20,164 nt of DNA from a virus. Shown one piece after another: positions 50-13,739 of the stretch (the stretch's first letter is position 1; each line of letters opens with the position of its first letter). Position numbers and translations under genes: made by a program. The notes below the pieces were generated by a model that saw nothing but the letters and a program-made list of their open reading frames with translations, was not told the origin of the DNA and ran no database searches. The stretch lies in IMG/VR virus record IMGVR_UViG_3300037189_014014, positions 1-20,164 of that record, one strand, 5' to 3'.

Positions 50-210
50 CCTCCATGTCTAAACGTATACATCAATGTGTACCGCTTGACATAAACATAG
101 GGAATACCGTAGCAGTATCACCATAACTAACACACATACTTACGAGGTGGGTGTAAATCGCGAGGTGGCACAACATACATGTACCAGCGGGGCGTGTATG
201 TGCTCTGATC
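50..210. repeat. Intergenic repeat R1 (first of four diverged copies)
   Basis: R1 separates the partial gene at the left edge from the coiled-coil gene at 242-745. In order on the + strand it has: the anti-ribosome-site CCTCC; TTGACA (86-91) and ATAGGG (97-102); the shared string ACCATAACTAACACACATAC; two identical octamers CGAGGTGG (143-150 and 161-168); and a hairpin with arms ACATACATG (173-181) and CGTGTATGT (193-201) around loop TACCAGCGGGG. The stem has nine pairs, one of them T-G. The loop is identical to that of R2 although the stems differ. On the minus strand the same region supplies the -10 box TATGTT (94-99) for the leftmost gene. The role of the octamers and hairpin is unknown; see findings. 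Confidence 0.85.
94..99 (-). promoter_or_regulatory. Candidate -10 box in R1 for the leftmost gene
   Basis: Read on the minus strand the site is TATGTT preceded by TTCCC. It aligns with TATATA, TATAAT and TATGAT at the same place in R2, R3 and R4. It would start a leader of about 45 bases ending in GGAGG and the ATG at position 41. No clear TTGACA-like -35 box lies 17 bases upstream; instead TTATGGTG is conserved in that area. Motif call only. Confidence 0.45.
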
Positions 211-219
211 AAGAAAAGT

Positions 220-239
220 GGAGGGGCCGAAGCCCCTCC
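220..239 (-). terminator. Intrinsic terminator after the coiled-coil gene
   Basis: An eight-pair perfect stem, GGAGGGGC with GCCCCTCC, closes a four-base loop. On the minus strand the loop is TTCG closed by C-G, the very stable tetraloop type, and is followed by ACTTTTCTT. It sits two bases past the stop codon of the gene at 242-745. On the + strand it is followed only by GTTTAG, so it is better suited to minus-strand transcripts, though it could also stop + strand RNA from R1. Confidence 0.8.
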
Positions 240-241
240 GT

Positions 242-745
242 TTAGTCCTCGTCCTCGTCGTCGATGACTTCACCGCCGGCCCAGTCAGGCAATGAATCGA
301 TGATTAACTGGTGTTTAATCACCAGTTCATCGTGCTTTTGCTTCAACAGTTCGTGTTCGTTGAACTGCGACCGTAGTACCTTTAGTTCATCGGTGCGCTT
401 GTCAAGGATAAACGTCTGTCGCTCAATGAGTTCCTGTGCTACCTTTGCATGTAACTTGTAATCATTGAGTTCTTTCGTAAGTTCCGCTATCCGTCCACGA
501 TGAAGCGTGTCCATCTTCGACAGTGTGCCCACACACTCAGATGCAACGTTGTTGCTGGTGCGGTAGAACTCGATACGTTTGTTGTGCAATTCGACACGTG
601 CACGGTATACGTCTAAGGCAATAATAGCCTCGTCGTAATGCCCTTGCTTTTCTTGCAGTCTGTACTGCAAGGAGCGAACTTCGATGAACGCGAGTCCACC
701 GAGAATAGCGAACACTGCGCATAGCAGTGCAAGGATTATAACCAT
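242..745 (-). CDS. Membrane-anchored coiled-coil protein, inner-membrane spanin-like
   Basis: A 167-residue protein. Residues 1-21 form a hydrophobic anchor (MVIILALLCAVFAILGGLAF). Most of the rest is charged and helical with heptad-like spacing, typical of a long coiled coil, and the C-terminus is very acidic (DDEDED). One N-terminal anchor plus a periplasmic coiled coil is the layout of i-spanins (Rz-type), which with an outer-membrane lipoprotein disrupt the outer membrane at lysis; no partner lipoprotein was found here. The start is set by GAGGAGG seven bases upstream; a reading from 814 would add 23 codons that lie in repeat R2. It is followed by a strong terminator and is a single-gene unit behind the R2 promoter. 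The spanin role is an inference from layout; a tape-like or scaffold membrane protein is possible. Confidence 0.8.
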   Translation of the reverse strand: MVIILALLCAVFAILGGLAFIEVRSLQYRLQEKQGHYDEAIIALDVYRARVELHNKRIEFYRTSNNVASECVGTLSKMDTLHRGRIAELTKELNDYKLHAKVAQELIERQTFILDKRTDELKVLRSQFNEHELLKQKHDELVIKHQLIIDSLPDWAGGEVIDDEDED

Positions 746-751
746 ACGTTG

Positions 752-889
752 TAGCCTCCTCTGACTACATCTATATAGGTAATACCGTAGCAGTATCACC
801 ATAACTAAACACACATACCTACGAGTTGCATGTAGTTCGCGACGTTGCTATACATGCTCGTACCAGCGGGGCGAGTGTGTGCTCTGACA
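752..889. repeat. Intergenic repeat R2
   Basis: Second copy of the repeat. It keeps the string AATACCGTAGCAGTATCACC shared with R1 and the same hairpin loop TACCAGCGGGG (861-871), but the stem arms are ACATGCTCG (852-860) and CGAGTGTGT (872-880). Compared with R1, one pair changes from A-T to T-A and two others interchange Watson-Crick and G-T pairs, so pairing is kept. The octamers are CGAGTTGC (822-829) and CGACGTTGC (840-848), similar to each other but unlike those of R1. The promoter-like part is the most diverged: CTGACT (761-766) replaces TTGACA and ATAGGT (775-780) replaces ATAGGG. Confidence 0.85.
772..777 (-). promoter_or_regulatory. Candidate -10 box in R2 for the coiled-coil gene
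   Basis: TATATA on the minus strand lies at the same place as the -10 boxes of R1, R3 and R4. The distance to the ATG at 745 is shorter than in the other copies, giving a leader of about 20 bases with GAGGAGG. The upstream element TTATGGTGATAC is shared with R1. A weak match to a bacterial promoter; no standard -35 box. Confidence 0.45.
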
Positions 890-899
890 AGGGATCGTC

Positions 900-926
900 G
901 CGCAGTCTAGCTGCGCTCCCCCTTTT
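900..926 (+). terminator. Palindromic hairpin GCGCAG/CTGCGC, probable terminator
   Basis: GCGCAG (900-905) and CTGCGC (911-916) form a perfect six-pair stem around TCTAG. On the + strand it is followed by TCCCCC and TTTT (923-926), on the minus strand by GACGATCCC, so it looks better as a + strand terminator although it lies just past the stop codon of the minus gene at 930-1175. The identical palindrome recurs at 1726-1742 in the same setting. Confidence 0.5.
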
Positions 927-929
927 GGT

Positions 930-1175
930 TTAGTACCAGCCGTTTTTATGGCCTGGTAAAGGTCGTGAGCCTTTCCAGTCATAATATGCATCTTCGCCGT
1001 GAACTCGAGTGTGTTCACCGTTGATTGTCACATCAACAAAAGCGTACACTCCATCACGACTATTCGTGATAGTTAGCATCACCGTCCGCTTTCCGTCAGG
1101 TGATGCAAAGTAATGTCCGGGCGTGCAAACGCCGGGTACCGGGTGGAAATCCCGGAAGTCGTCAAATGGTTTCAT
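930..1175 (-). CDS. Small hypothetical protein (81 residues)
   Basis: The protein begins MKPFDDFRDFHPVPG and has a middle part rich in beta-branched residues (KRTVMLTITN, GVYAFVDVTINGEH), suggesting a small beta-sheet domain, followed by an aromatic and basic tail ending in NGWY. No family was recognised. The start is fixed by GGAGG seven bases upstream of ATG at 1175; a longer reading from 1322 runs backwards through the hairpin and the end of the next gene and is not credible. It is the second gene of the R3 cassette, separated from the zinc-finger gene by a GC-rich hairpin at 1195-1215. It may be involved in early host takeover like many such small phage genes, but that is only context. 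Confidence 0.7.
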   Translation of the reverse strand: MKPFDDFRDFHPVPGVCTPGHYFASPDGKRTVMLTITNSRDGVYAFVDVTINGEHTRVHGEDAYYDWKGSRPLPGHKNGWY

Positions 1176-1194
1176 ACATACCTCCAAAGTCAAA

Positions 1195-1215
1195 CGGGGC
1201 GCTGTCACCGCCCCG
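1195..1215 (-). terminator. Inter-gene hairpin with loop GTGACAG, possible attenuator
   Basis: A seven-pair stem, CGGGGCG with CGCCCCG, surrounds a seven-base loop that reads GTGACAG on the minus strand. It lies between the stop of the gene at 1225-1542 and the ribosome site of the gene at 930-1175. GTTTGACTTT follows on the minus strand, only a weak T tract, so partial termination, mRNA-end protection or a processing site are all possible. The hairpin at 1920-1940 has the same loop and a compensated stem at the matching place in the next cassette. Confidence 0.55.
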
Positions 1216-1224
1216 AGCCTACGA

Positions 1225-1542
1225 TTATTTACCGCACCGGCATTCAAACTGGCACGGCATCGGTTCGCGGAATGACGCGCATCCCGGACACGAGCAAGCC
1301 GACGTGTCGTGATTCTTGTCACGTCCGCATCCCTCGCATGGAATCACGCGGGTTTGCAACCATATGCGATGACGATACTGCATCGCCCATATTTGGTTGC
1401 GCACTAGATGGTATAAGTCATCTAGCGTGATGTCCGATGTAGCGGTGATTCCTTCGCAGGAATCAGGCTCAACGGCAACCGTGTTGCCGTCAAACCGTAT
1501 CAACGTGTCGCACCCCATGATGCGAGATTCTAATGTATGCAT
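1225..1542 (-). CDS. Small protein with cysteine-rich, probably zinc-binding, C-terminus
   Basis: A 105-residue protein. The N-terminal part (MHTLESRIMGCDTLIRFDGN) is mixed alpha/beta. From about residue 75 there are clustered cysteines and histidines: CEGCGRD, then CSCPGC, then CQFECRCGK at the end, giving several CxxC or CxC knuckles suited to binding one or two zinc ions. The start at 1542 is preceded by GGAGGT seven bases away; a reading from 1557 would put the ribosome site inside the gene. The leader up to the start is almost identical to that of the gene at 1951-2223, which also ends in a zinc ribbon, so the two may be distant paralogs that diverged by the same cassette duplication. 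Probable nucleic-acid or protein binder; function unknown. Confidence 0.75.
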   Translation of the reverse strand: MHTLESRIMGCDTLIRFDGNTVAVEPDSCEGITATSDITLDDLYHLVRNQIWAMQYRHRIWLQTRVIPCEGCGRDKNHDTSACSCPGCASFREPMPCQFECRCGK

Positions 1543-1549
1543 GATGCAT

Positions 1550-1712
1550 ACCTCCACCGTCTAAACGTTACATCGATGTGCAACGCTTGACATAATTATA
1601 GGGAATATCGCACCGATGCCACCACAACTATAGACACATACCTACGAGTGGCATGTAAATCGAGTGGCCATATAACACATACCTGTACCTGCGGAGGGTG
1701 TGTGTGGTGCAC
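1550..1712. repeat. Intergenic repeat R3
   Basis: Third copy. TTGACA (1587-1592) and ATAGGG (1598-1603) match R1 and R4. The octamers are identical to each other, CGAGTGGC (1645-1652 and 1661-1668), but differ from those in the other copies. The hairpin has arms ACACATACC (1675-1683) and GGTGTGTGT (1697-1705), nine pairs with one T-G, around a 13-base loop that holds the shared core GTACC and CGG. The copy is followed by the GCGCAG palindrome at 1726-1742. On the minus strand it provides a perfect TATAAT at 1595-1600. Confidence 0.85.
1595..1600 (-). promoter_or_regulatory. -10 box TATAAT in R3 for the 1542-930 gene pair
   Basis: The best -10 match of the four repeats. Read on the minus strand it is TATAAT preceded by TTCCC, with a predicted start about seven bases later and a leader of about 45 bases that ends in GGAGGT and the ATG at 1542. 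The conserved upstream string GTTGTGGTGGCAT lies where a -35 box or activator site would be. The same bases on the + strand are part of the ATAGGG motif. Confidence 0.55.
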
Positions 1713-1725
1713 TAAAAGGATCATC

Positions 1726-1742
1726 GCGCAGTCTAGCTGCGC
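1726..1742 (+). terminator. Palindromic hairpin GCGCAG/CTGCGC, second copy
   Basis: This is the same 17-base palindrome as at 900-916, with the same flank ATCrTC before it and TCCCC after it. It separates R3 from the small membrane-protein gene at 1756-1896. The T tract is poorer here (TCCCCTATTG), so termination on the + strand would be weak; on the minus strand it would fold past the end of the gene at 1756 without a T tract. Confidence 0.4.
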
Positions 1743-1755
1743 TCCCCTATTGTGA

Positions 1756-1896
1756 TTAGTCGATTAAGGCAGAAATGCCTATCGCACCAAGGAACACCGG
1801 TGCTATAACAGAATAGCCTGACCAGATGCAGATAACTGTTGCAACTAGCATGACGCATCCAAAGAGCCGTCGGCCAAAAGATTTTTGTTTTTGCAT
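1756..1896 (-). CDS. Small membrane protein (46 residues)
   Basis: The reading frame gives MQKQKSFGRRLFGCVM and then a long hydrophobic stretch (residues 14-43) ending in ALID. The hydrophobic part is broken near WSGYS, so it may be one long or two short membrane segments with a basic N-terminus held in the cytoplasm. The start is supported by AAGGA eight bases upstream. Another frame over the same bases (1733-1972) is longer but has no ribosome site and crosses the neighbouring gene and hairpin. It is the second gene of the R4 cassette. Small size, basic tail and hydrophobic core would fit a holin-like or other membrane-active phage protein, but there is no family match to support that. Confidence 0.6.
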   Translation of the reverse strand: MQKQKSFGRRLFGCVMLVATVICIWSGYSVIAPVFLGAIGISALID

Positions 1897-1919
1897 ATTG
1901 TTTTTCCTTTCCATAAAGT

Positions 1920-1940
1920 GAGGGCGCTGTCACCGCCCTC
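1920..1940 (-). terminator. Inter-gene hairpin with loop GTGACAG, second copy
   Basis: The stem is GAGGGCG with CGCCCTC (seven pairs) around the same seven-base loop as the hairpin at 1195-1215. Two stem pairs differ from that copy, each changed on both sides so that pairing holds. It lies between the zinc-ribbon gene and the small membrane-protein gene. CACTTTATGG follows on the minus strand, so again there is no strong T tract. Confidence 0.55.
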
Positions 1941-1950
1941 TGGTTTACGA

Positions 1951-2223
1951 TTAGTGCGTGAAGTATCCGCACTCATGACAGTCGCGACCGTCAAAGGTTC
2001 CGCGACCGCACTCGGGGCAACTTGGCGCTACCGCCTGTGCTGAGCGTCGTAGCGATTCCTTGAACACCACCATTGACACAGCCAAGCGAACTTGACGCGT
2101 TGTCCAATAGTTGCGGTACGCTGTTGAACCGTACCCTTCAACATAAAGGATAGCGAAGTCATGTGGTGGATATTGCACCACCTTGCAACGATGCCCGATA
2201 CAGGCAAACTTTGTGATATGCAC
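1951..2223 (-). CDS. Small protein with C-terminal zinc ribbon
   Basis: A 90-residue protein starting at GTG (2223). Residues 1-65 are mixed, with an aromatic segment (GYGSTAYRNYWTTRQVRLAV). The C-terminus from about residue 69 reads CPECGRGTFDGRDCHECGYF: two CxxC pairs ten residues apart, a compact zinc ribbon of the type common in small phage and bacterial regulatory proteins. The GTG start is chosen because GGAGGT stands seven bases upstream and because it aligns with the ATG of the gene at 1225-1542 in an almost identical leader. It is the first gene of the R4 cassette, transcribed away from the + strand operon. Probable role in binding nucleic acid or a host protein; unproven. Confidence 0.75.
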   Translation of the reverse strand: MHITKFACIGHRCKVVQYPPHDFAILYVEGYGSTAYRNYWTTRQVRLAVSMVVFKESLRRSAQAVAPSCPECGRGTFDGRDCHECGYFTH

Positions 2224-2275
2224 GATGCATACCTCCAACGTCTAAAGATTACATCACCGTGCAACCCTTGACATA

Positions 2276-2281
2276 ATCATA
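2276..2281 (-). promoter_or_regulatory. -10 box TATGAT in R4 for the zinc-ribbon cassette
   Basis: TATGAT on the minus strand, preceded by TTCCC as in R1 and R3. It would give a leader of about 45 bases to the GTG at 2223, ending in GGAGGT. The upstream string GTTATGGTGGTAT is shared with the other repeats. It drives leftward transcription, back to back with the + strand operon that begins at 2603. Confidence 0.5.
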
Positions 2282-2356
2282 GGGAATACACCACGCATAC
2301 CACCATAACCACATACCTATACCTACGTGAGGGGTGTAGATCGTGAGGGTAAGACA

Positions 2357-2391
2357 ATGCGCAGTACCTACGGATGGTGCGTATGCTTTTT
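2357..2391 (+). terminator. R4 hairpin followed by a T run
   Basis: The covarying hairpin of R4 (arms 2357-2363 and 2378-2384) is followed by GC and five T residues. This is the only copy where hairpin and T run adjoin. It would end a short + strand RNA of about 110 bases begun at the GGG at 2282-2284. The stem is only seven pairs with a large loop, so termination may be partial. Confidence 0.4.
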
Positions 2392-2398
2392 ATATATA

Positions 2399-2565: not shown

Positions 2566-2599
2566 TACAATACCTACGTGCGTAGCGTCAAGGAGGTAA
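2566..2599 (+). promoter_or_regulatory. Leader of the + strand early operon: -10 candidate, palindrome and ribosome site
   Basis: TACAAT (2566-2571) is a fair -10 match, without a recognisable -35 box. It is followed by CTACG-TG-CGTAG (2574-2585), a short palindrome at about the expected transcription start, and by AAGGAGGT (2591-2598) in front of ATG 2603. The string ATACCTACG at 2570 also occurs in the nearby repeats next to the octamers, which may indicate a shared binding site. Motif-level evidence only. Confidence 0.4.
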
Positions 2600-6450: not shown

Positions 6451-6789
6451 ATGAGTAATGGATACACACCACGTACGTTCTTGCATCACTTGCTTGACAA
6501 GCAACGTATGACTCAGAAGTATTTTGCCGAGCTGATGGGCGTTGATCGACCCAACGTTTCGATGTGGATGAGCGGTAAACGAATGCCGTACGAAGAGTCA
6601 ATCAATAAGATGGCAGACATCTTGCAGGTTGATCGTAAGTGGCTTCATGGAAACTTGATTGGTATGCAACTTGTTCGTGCTCACGGATCAGAAGACAACA
6701 TCTTGTTGAACTATGTGAAAGAGCATATTGAGAATGAAGTTACAGGACAGTGGTATGCAAAGCATGTAGGAGGTAAGGATGCTGAATAA
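6451..6789 (+). CDS. XRE-family helix-turn-helix regulator
   Basis: A 112-residue protein. Residues 8-65 form a Cro/CI-type domain: TPRTFLHHLLDKQRMTQKYF, the HTH at about 21-41 (TQKYFAELMGVDRPNVSMWM, where helix 3 carries the RPNVSMWMSG recognition pattern), then INKMADILQVDRKWL. The C-terminal 45 residues lack a peptidase or dimerisation motif that I recognise, so it looks like a Cro-type rather than a cleavable CI repressor. AAGGAGGT precedes the ATG. It overlaps ssb by 11 bases and would be transcribed with it, so it may control its own operon and DNA replication genes. Confidence 0.9.
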   Translation: MSNGYTPRTFLHHLLDKQRMTQKYFAELMGVDRPNVSMWMSGKRMPYEESINKMADILQVDRKWLHGNLIGMQLVRAHGSEDNILLNYVKEHIENEVTGQWYAKHVGGKDAE

Positions 6790-11260: not shown

Positions 11261-12019
11261 ATGGCTGAGATTGTTGAAATTGGCGATGACAGATATCGAG
11301 TTACCAATGGTAAGCAAGTAAAACTATGTCGAGGAATAAGTACCTATAATTCAGAAGAGGGTAGACCTTGTAATAGCATCGCCCTTTCTGGGCGAAACTA
11401 CTGTAGATTTCATGGTGGCAAGACACTAATTGGCCCAGCTCATCCAAACTTTATTACTGGGTTGAACTCCGTAGGTTACAAGCGGTTTAGTAAAGTAGGT
11501 AAAGAACTACTTACTCAAATAGACGAATTACGTAACGACCCAGACCTATTTAGTTTGAAAGATGACGCAGCATTCATTACTGCGATCATGGACAAGCGTG
11601 CTGAAGCTGCTGGAGAAGGCGTAGGCATTGAGCAGTACAAGAAAGTACAAGCAGCCTACCAACTTGCTCATAGTAAATTAGGTTCATCTGACTTTATTGA
11701 TGCCTTTGAACAGATTGGCGACGTATTAAACGAGACACTTGATCAATTTGCAGCCAGCAGAGATGTCATGGAATTAATTGATCGACGTGTCGAGATAGTT
11801 GAGGCTGAGCAACGCATGATGCATGCGAAGGCATATACCCTCGAGGTTGATCAAGCTTTTTCATTTGCTATGCAGTTACTTGAGATCGTCAAAGACAATG
11901 TACGTAATGGTGATGAGTTGATTGCTATTCGAACCGGCGTGCAAAAGATGTTGAAGTTGTACAAGGGTGATGACGCAGATGACATACAAGACGCGGAGAT
12001 CATAAATGAATCAGCGTGA
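11261..12019 (+). CDS. Candidate small terminase subunit with N-terminal zinc knuckle
   Basis: A 252-residue protein directly upstream of the large terminase and overlapping it by 14 bases, the classic small-subunit position. Residues 20-55 have four probable metal ligands: Cys-23, Cys-37, Cys-48 and His-51, in LCRGIST, GRPCNSIALSG and NYCRFHGGKT. The CRFHGG motif is common in phage proteins next to terminases. Residues 100-235 are helical (LTQIDELRNDP, AFITAIMDKRAEAAGEG, QRMMHAKAYTLEVDQ), suited to oligomerisation. The small subunit recognises phage DNA and loads the large subunit. The call rests on place and motif; no strong HTH is visible. The ribosome site is poor (AAGTTGG), and a TATTAT box lies just upstream. 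Confidence 0.65.
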   Translation: MAEIVEIGDDRYRVTNGKQVKLCRGISTYNSEEGRPCNSIALSGRNYCRFHGGKTLIGPAHPNFITGLNSVGYKRFSKVGKELLTQIDELRNDPDLFSLKDDAAFITAIMDKRAEAAGEGVGIEQYKKVQAAYQLAHSKLGSSDFIDAFEQIGDVLNETLDQFAASRDVMELIDRRVEIVEAEQRMMHAKAYTLEVDQAFSFAMQLLEIVKDNVRNGDELIAIRTGVQKMLKLYKGDDADDIQDAEIINESA

Positions 12020-13739
12020 TCATGACAAGCTCACACCTCGTCGATTTAAGCAATTTACAAGGCCAGACAAACCTTTATCGCATGCACTGCTTGAGGCGAT
12101 GGATGCACGTTTAAAAGAAGTTATTGAAACAGGCGACTACAACTCGGGGAGGGCATATCAAATTAGCGGAGCTGAACTAGATTATAAAAAGTGGCTGCGT
12201 ACATACGCTCCACATGCAGCGTCGTCAGACCTTGGTGCTCATCACGAGCGTGCGTGGGAGTGGGCAGAAGGCATAGTGCCTGGTACGCCTCCACGTGCCC
12301 TAATTGAGTGCTGGTTTCGTGGTGGTGGGAAAAGTACCACAATGGAACTTATAACGTCTAGAATCGCCGTTAAGGGTACAAGGCGGTTTCTTGTGTATGT
12401 ATGTGCTACACAAGAAGCTGCTGATAGGCACGTGTCAGATATCGCAACCACTATGGAGCGATGTGGCATTGAAAGGGCTATGAACCGTTATGGCTTTTCT
12501 AAGGGATGGAATGCAAGCAAGCTTCGCACTGCTAATGGTTTTAACGTATTGGCTTTCGGTCTTGATACTGGCGCTCGTGGTGTTAAACTGGATCATCTTA
12601 GGCCTGACTTTATTATTCTCGACGATATTGACGAACTTGACGACTCAGTTAACAGGGTTGATAAAAAGATTGCTACGATAACACAAACTATTTTGCCAGC
12701 AAAGTCAAACGACTGCGCGATTGCGTTTGTTCAAAACAAGATCCACGCAAACTCTGTAATGGCTCAAGTTCTCAGTGGTGAGCTTGATATGTTGCAGAAC
12801 AGAATCCAGTCACCTATTGTCCCTGCAATTATTGATTTGAGATATGAGCCAGTTGAAAAAGAAGATGGCCGTATGGGTTATAAGATTACAGGCGGTACAC
12901 CTAGTTGGTCTCATAAAAACTTAGAGGTCTGCCAGCGTGAAATTGATGACTACGGACTTATCTCATTCCTTCGTGAGTGTCAGCATGACGTTGGCGTTGG
13001 TGGAAGATTCTTCCCAGAGTTTAAACAGCATGACGAAAAGGGTCAACCATGGCACGTAGTTGACACTATTGATGTCAAGCCGTGGTGGAGATTCTGGGCA
13101 TCTCATGACTTTGGAACTAATAGTCCAGCTTCGTTTATGATTTACGCGAGTGATGATGTAGAAAATGTTTACGTTCTTGCAGAAATTTATAAAAATGGAA
13201 TGGTCTCAAGTCAGCAAGCTGATGCTGCTCTCGAACTACTGGAGACAATGAAGTTAGCTGAACCAATACAATCAGATAAGCGACAGGAGACATGGCGTAC
13301 TAAGCTTGAAGCAATTGCATTTGACTGGGGTAACACATTCCCGCCGGAAAACCCTGCACAACGTATTGGTGAGTATCCTGTTGAGATCTGGTGGAAAAAA
13401 GGCATGCCGGCAGTACGTGCCGTCAAAGATCGTAAAGCTGGTTGGAGACGAGTTAAAGAATGGCTGGCTTCGTCTCGTATGCACGAGGGTTCTGTTATTC
13501 CGAGATTGCGCATTCTTCGTAACGGATGTCCTAACCTTATTCGTGAACTAGAAGCAGCAATGGCTGACCCACGTGATCCAGAAGAACTTGACAATGGTAC
13601 AAAAAGCGACCACGCACTCGACTCGTTTAGATATGGCGTTATGTGGCGCGAGTATCCAGCAAAGTGTGAAGAGGTAGTAGAAAAAATGAAGTACGCGCCT
13701 TCGTGGCTTCGTCCGCCTATTACGGATAACTTTTTATGA
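12006..13739 (+). CDS. Terminase large subunit (packaging ATPase and nuclease)
   Basis: A 577-residue protein with both terminase domains. ATPase: Walker A at 104-111 (FRGGGKST, a glycine-rich variant) and Walker B at 201-207 (DFIILDD, with the catalytic acidic residue next). RNase H-like nuclease: acidic residues Asp-368 in ASHDFG, Asp-440 in FDWG and Asp-539 in HALDSFRYG. The protein docks on the portal, pumps DNA into the prohead and cuts the concatemer. The length is normal. It overlaps the candidate small subunit upstream and ends over the start of a tiny membrane-protein gene. The packaging strategy (cos or headful) cannot be told from this gene alone. Confidence 0.95.
   Translation: MNQRDHDKLTPRRFKQFTRPDKPLSHALLEAMDARLKEVIETGDYNSGRAYQISGAELDYKKWLRTYAPHAASSDLGAHHERAWEWAEGIVPGTPPRALIECWFRGGGKSTTMELITSRIAVKGTRRFLVYVCATQEAADRHVSDIATTMERCGIERAMNRYGFSKGWNASKLRTANGFNVLAFGLDTGARGVKLDHLRPDFIILDDIDELDDSVNRVDKKIATITQTILPAKSNDCAIAFVQNKIHANSVMAQVLSGELDMLQNRIQSPIVPAIIDLRYEPVEKEDGRMGYKITGGTPSWSHKNLEVCQREIDDYGLISFLRECQHDVGVGGRFFPEFKQHDEKGQPWHVVDTIDVKPWWRFWASHDFGTNSPASFMIYASDDVENVYVLAEIYKNGMVSSQQADAALELLETMKLAEPIQSDKRQETWRTKLEAIAFDWGNTFPPENPAQRIGEYPVEIWWKKGMPAVRAVKDRKAGWRRVKEWLASSRMHEGSVIPRLRILRNGCPNLIRELEAAMADPRDPEELDNGTKSDHALDSFRYGVMWREYPAKCEEVVEKMKYAPSWLRPPITDNFL

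Follow-up and report, generated by a model that had tools for sequence, protein, structure and literature searches.

The window analysed here, a virus record of 20,164 bases, carries small leftward genes, and directly upstream of these lie copies of an element of ~120 bases (Table 1). Leftward genes without a copy exist as well; these are reading frames located around 930-1170 and 1756-1914. Four hairpins, R1 to R4, which an earlier note had located here and read as four related RNAs, were confirmed in place; they sit within repeats of 60-130 bases sharing 60-80% identity. A repeated element with conserved pairing was upheld, but not a family of only four, since the unit is larger and its copies more numerous.

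Table 1. Elements and neighbouring features in the window (element strand given as a dot)
Feature	Position	Strand	Details
Element copy R1	94-213	.	minus -10 box 94-99; block 1 TACTTACG 137-144; block 2 TGTAAATC 152-159; block 3 TACCAGCGG 182-190; arms 173-181/193-201
Direct repeat of R1	144-168	+	GAGGTGG 144-150 and 162-168, after blocks 1 and 2
Terminator-like hairpin of the minus-strand gene 242-748	220-239	-	
Small leftward gene downstream of R2	242-748	-	no PHROG match
5′ leader hairpin holding the Shine-Dalgarno	751-768	-	GTAG TCAGAGGAGG CTAC on the minus strand
Element copy R2	772-892	.	minus -10 box 772-777; block 1 816-823; block 2 831-838; block 3 861-869; arms 852-860/872-880
Small leftward gene downstream of R3	1225-1545	-	cysteine-rich; no PHROG match
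Element copy R3	1595-1716	.	minus -10 box TATAAT 1595-1600; block 1 1639-1646; block 2 1654-1661; block 3 1686-1694; arms 1675-1683/1697-1705
Small leftward gene downstream of R4	1951-2226	-	cysteine-rich; no PHROG match
Element copy R4	2276-2396	.	minus -10 box 2276-2281; block 1 2320-2327; block 2 2335-2342; block 3 2365-2373; arms 2357-2363/2378-2384
Block-1 motif before the first rightward gene (2603-2830), at its presumed promoter	2570-2582	+	ATACCTACGTGCG

Read from left to right in the orientation of the window, the element consists of a TATA-like -10 box on the minus strand, a spacer of ~40 bases, block 1 (TACYTRCG), a variable word A, block 2 (TGTAGATC), a word B, the 5′ arm, block 3 (TACYWGCG-like) and the 3′ arm, beyond which the adjacent leftward gene ends. 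In minus-strand sense the order is gene end or terminator, ~120-bp element, TATA-like -10, a leader that often has the Shine-Dalgarno in a hairpin, and start codon, and the preceding leftward gene often closes with a terminal hairpin and a T-run. Spacing is nearly fixed: 15 between blocks 1 and 2 in 64 of the 69 copies aligned (see below) and 30-33 between blocks 2 and 3, again in 64/69. Most copies hold two TACYTRCG-like boxes 45-47 bp apart, and the TATA-like -10 is mostly found at 41-48 bp from block 1, towards the gene. The hairpin at 220-239, formerly taken for the end of a plus-strand RNA, instead reads as the terminator of a minus-strand gene. Similarly, the proposed RNA start near ATAGGG fits three of the four copies but not R2 (ATAGGT), and the motif overlaps the complement of the minus-strand -10 box.

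A 30.6-kb contig, identical to the window over the 2438 bases compared and with a 100% identical terL, extends it leftward and holds nine copies in total. A covariance model built from eleven copies located further ones in relatives whose terL is 80-95% identical, and a search of the extracted regions gave 69 aligned copies, distributed over eight contigs from a single phage clade: ten each in L126, L127 and L128, nine in L094 and L125, eight in L129 and L131, and five in the 15-kb fragment L130. All copies share the strand of terL, the small genes between them being on the opposite strand, and all are confined to the region of leftward small genes, with none among the virion genes. Exact-pattern and wider scans of viral contigs returned only the same clade and one short contig. 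The more distant terL relatives L140-L145 contain no full copy, while a TACYTRCG-like box is present in L140 and L141. In these two contigs a TACTTGCG box stands at or after TATACT at rightward genes (L140 14420-14460; L141 10790-10830 and 11401-11441), with an inverted copy upstream in L141. Similar DNA was not found among cultured phages, whose terL relatives show 27-32% identity over part of the protein, and the major capsid protein had no match in bacterial genomes.

Pairing of the arms was assessed by within-genome permutations in which arms were swapped between copies. From the four window copies alone, the case for the within-copy pairing described by the earlier note is weak, cross-copy pairing being about equal (for the R2 5′ arm the score is 12.5 against the R1 3′ arm and 11.0 against its own partner). 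With 69 copies the within-copy pairing stands above chance: own arms paired better than swapped arms, a score matched in 0 of 3000 permutations, which ignore kinship between genomes. The covariation was strongest with Watson-Crick pairs only (z 4.66), compared with 3.87 when plus-strand G-U was added and 4.10 when minus-strand G-U was added. Genome by genome, with plus-strand G-U allowed, p was 0.003 in L094, 0.012 in L125, 0.37 in L126, 0.007 in L127, and 0.03 in both L128 and L130. Arms that vary without preserved pairing, which had been named as evidence against structured RNAs, were met in part of the relatives, namely L129 and L131 (16 copies; p of 0.23 and 0.88).

The stems of R1-R4 contain exactly five non-Watson-Crick pairs, T-G every time on the plus strand, and R1 and R2 have an identical 11-base loop, TACCAGCGGGG, as had been reported. 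The T-G pairs had also been read as pointing to plus-strand RNA. This argument proved weak, because swapped arms already give a G-T share among G-T plus A-C mismatches of 0.80 ± 0.03, against 0.86 observed, so that the pattern is mostly base composition. A modest residue favouring the plus strand is left, in that the stems contain fewer A-C mismatches than swapped arms do (11 observed versus 21.4 ± 3.6). No other pairing within the element exceeded that of swapped copies, and a hairpin between blocks 1 and 2, made for the most part of pairs that are invariant or G-U, is uninformative. None of the plus-strand segments of R1-R4 folds better than its own shuffles (z 0.12 to -0.42).

Words A and B form a pair of direct repeats of 5-8 bases, 16 bp apart, which match inside each copy and differ among copies. 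Their agreement within a copy lies far above that of swapped copies (z 7.3, and about 9 in a second run, kinship ignored), a signal stronger than the arm covariation and one that the earlier note had missed. In L094 and L126 the agreement gave p = 0.00005, with 0.0004 in L127, 0.003 in L128 and 0.055 in L125; in L129-L131 it was not significant. No significant complement of the repeated word was detected upstream or downstream of the element. Such agreement inside a copy combined with divergence among copies is uncommon in promoters and calls for an explanation.

Because the element is positioned upstream of the -10 box and leader that belong to leftward genes, a promoter region is the first choice. 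We give a probability of about 0.6 to the reading, drawn from sequence, that it is a multi-copy upstream promoter region helping to switch on the leftward small genes; its promoter position is well supported by the anatomy. Each element would act as the double-stranded upstream promoter region of a leftward gene, probably early, a timing that we infer from gene position only. Transcription would start just beyond the -10 box, and the Shine-Dalgarno would often be presented in a small hairpin at the start of the mRNA. Among 37 leaders with GGAGG, the flanking stems covary (own 6.48, swapped 5.22, z 6.4, 0/5000, kinship ignored), with variants such as GTAGC/GCTAC, GTTAC/GTAAC, GATGC/GCATC and GTCGC/GCGAC. 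Since these covarying stems come after the -10 box, the mRNA probably begins near the stem, which would make the 120-base element upstream DNA.

The two TACYTRCG-like boxes and the TGTAGATC box, at nearly fixed distances from the TATA-like -10, would most likely be bound by a regulator. In L094 and L125-L128 the block-1 box also precedes the first rightward gene, standing about 25-35 bases before it in the same orientation; in L126 and L127 it takes the form TTGCAT-16-TATACT, then TACGAG. That this box recurs where the rightward operon begins suggests one regulator for both directions, which would act on the leftward genes and the rightward operon; against this, G015 showed no such box at its first rightward gene. 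On the rightward strand, 6451-6789 encodes an HTH transcriptional regulator (PHROG repressor families), a candidate regulator of the elements. Sigma-70 region 2 was searched for and not found, and T7-type RNA polymerase (PF00940) had no match in 13 records, the control genomes being silent too.

Several observations weigh against the promoter reading. The family is without a clear -35 hexamer, and in a promoter scan of the window only R3 showed a good sigma-70 match at its own -10 (at 1595). Moreover, a plain promoter needs neither pairing arms nor copy-specific direct repeats, and T-runs after the hairpin on the plus strand are in excess.

These T-runs belong to the main rival, in which the element would also be a plus-strand RNA gene, with TATACYTACG as its -10 and a start at or after TACG; the RNA, of 60-90 bases, would hold two copies of the variable word and end at the covarying hairpin. 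Plus-strand RNAs from the elements are possible on the sequence, and we consider this version unlikely; a bank of roughly ten divergent small RNAs, with private duplicated words and private hairpin arms beside the leftward units, appears somewhat less probable again. As the box before the first rightward gene is shared by five contigs in the same orientation, block 1 could by homology be a plus-strand -10, but it may equally be an operator. T-runs of at least 4 follow the hairpin in 19/69 copies versus about 2 expected, and these include R4, the copy adjoining the rightward operon, where the run comes after the 3′ arm and a plus-strand terminator-like match spans 2364-2380. The depletion of A-C mismatches in the stems points the same way, and the variable 5-8-mer, present twice, is reminiscent of a two-seed small RNA. 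However, most copies are devoid of the T-run, the plus-strand start has no -35, and the segments fold no better than shuffles. Watson-Crick pairing alone accounts for the covariation at least equally, pairing is lost in L129 and L131, no complement of the repeated word lies nearby, and Rfam gave no match, either at the gathering threshold or at E 5. A tRNA scan found nothing. If such RNAs were real, they would constitute a new bank of phage small RNAs. They would then be like the Racr RNA anti-CRISPRs, short phage non-coding RNAs with their own promoters that mimic the CRISPR repeat (PMC10651486), with the difference that the element copies here differ from one another.

It is improbable, though still more credible than the two schemes below, that arms and direct repeats are mutation products in an ordinary promoter region and have no function of their own, having arisen by template switching at quasi-palindromes, slippage or gene conversion between near repeats. 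Each direct repeat indeed has its partner in the same copy as its only match in the vicinity, and both arms and repeats are weak or absent in some relatives; against this, both features are kept in many copies and in two sub-groups despite sequence change.

In the early promoters of phage N4, the template strand forms a hairpin. A single-strand promoter of this style, for a virion RNA polymerase, would agree with the hairpin strand here serving as template for the leftward genes and with the giant protein encoded by relatives (4046 aa in G023, its gene at L147:715-12852; giant reading frames are also present in G009 and G015). However, this protein has no significant Pfam, PHROG or PDB match, hence none to an RNA polymerase, no consistent T7/N4-type or DxDxD motifs were found among the relatives, and the hairpin, unlike that of N4, is placed some 80-90 bp upstream of the -10, away from the start site, which makes such a promoter very unlikely. 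Least credible of all are integron attC-like recombination sites between gene cassettes: the array layout, with one or two genes to a unit, sites all in one orientation and stems that pair yet vary, would suit them, but the RYYYAAC...GTTRRRY core pair occurs in 0/69 copies and a tyrosine recombinase is absent from seven records (controls positive).

For the promoter reading, the nearest known kind is the ESAS/SAS of cluster K mycobacteriophages, to which the present elements are unrelated in sequence. ESAS contain putative SigA-like promoters (PMC11373665, PMC3203893), and their repeats, according to Pope et al., generally do not support pairing (ESAS/SAS: PMC3203893, PMC11373665). Both kinds are multi-copy, intergenic and upstream of non-structural genes only. 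In both, the near-gene part surrounds the Shine-Dalgarno, with GGGATAGGAGCCC in ESAS/SAS and variable stems around GGAGG here, and the far part of ESAS, like that of the element, combines a putative promoter with imperfect inverted repeats. Unlike the ESAS of about 50 bp, the element measures about 120 bp and carries two TACYTRCG-like boxes, covarying direct repeats and pairing arms. Compared with SigA-like -35/-10 at 17-18-bp spacing, it has a conserved -10 and no consistent -35. A search for the 13-bp SAS GGGATAGGAGCCC before start codons, with up to 2 mismatches, found none in the window and three large relatives; we therefore regard the element as working like ESAS/SAS without classing it as one. 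ESAS-type repeated upstream elements of phage early genes are without settled function. With 69 copies in a rare clade and conserved boxes at fixed spacing, a regulator-binding test would therefore be easy.

Between the leftward and rightward operons, at 2397-2500, lies a C-rich tract (G-rich on the minus strand), a candidate origin or packaging site, in which CCCACATGGCAA is conserved in 4/5 contigs compared. Another repeat family, which is partly palindromic and GCAGAATCTGCACCC-like, was observed at the distal end of the array of elements (L094 ~11990-12140), and similar sequence adjoins the outermost element in L125, L129 and L131.
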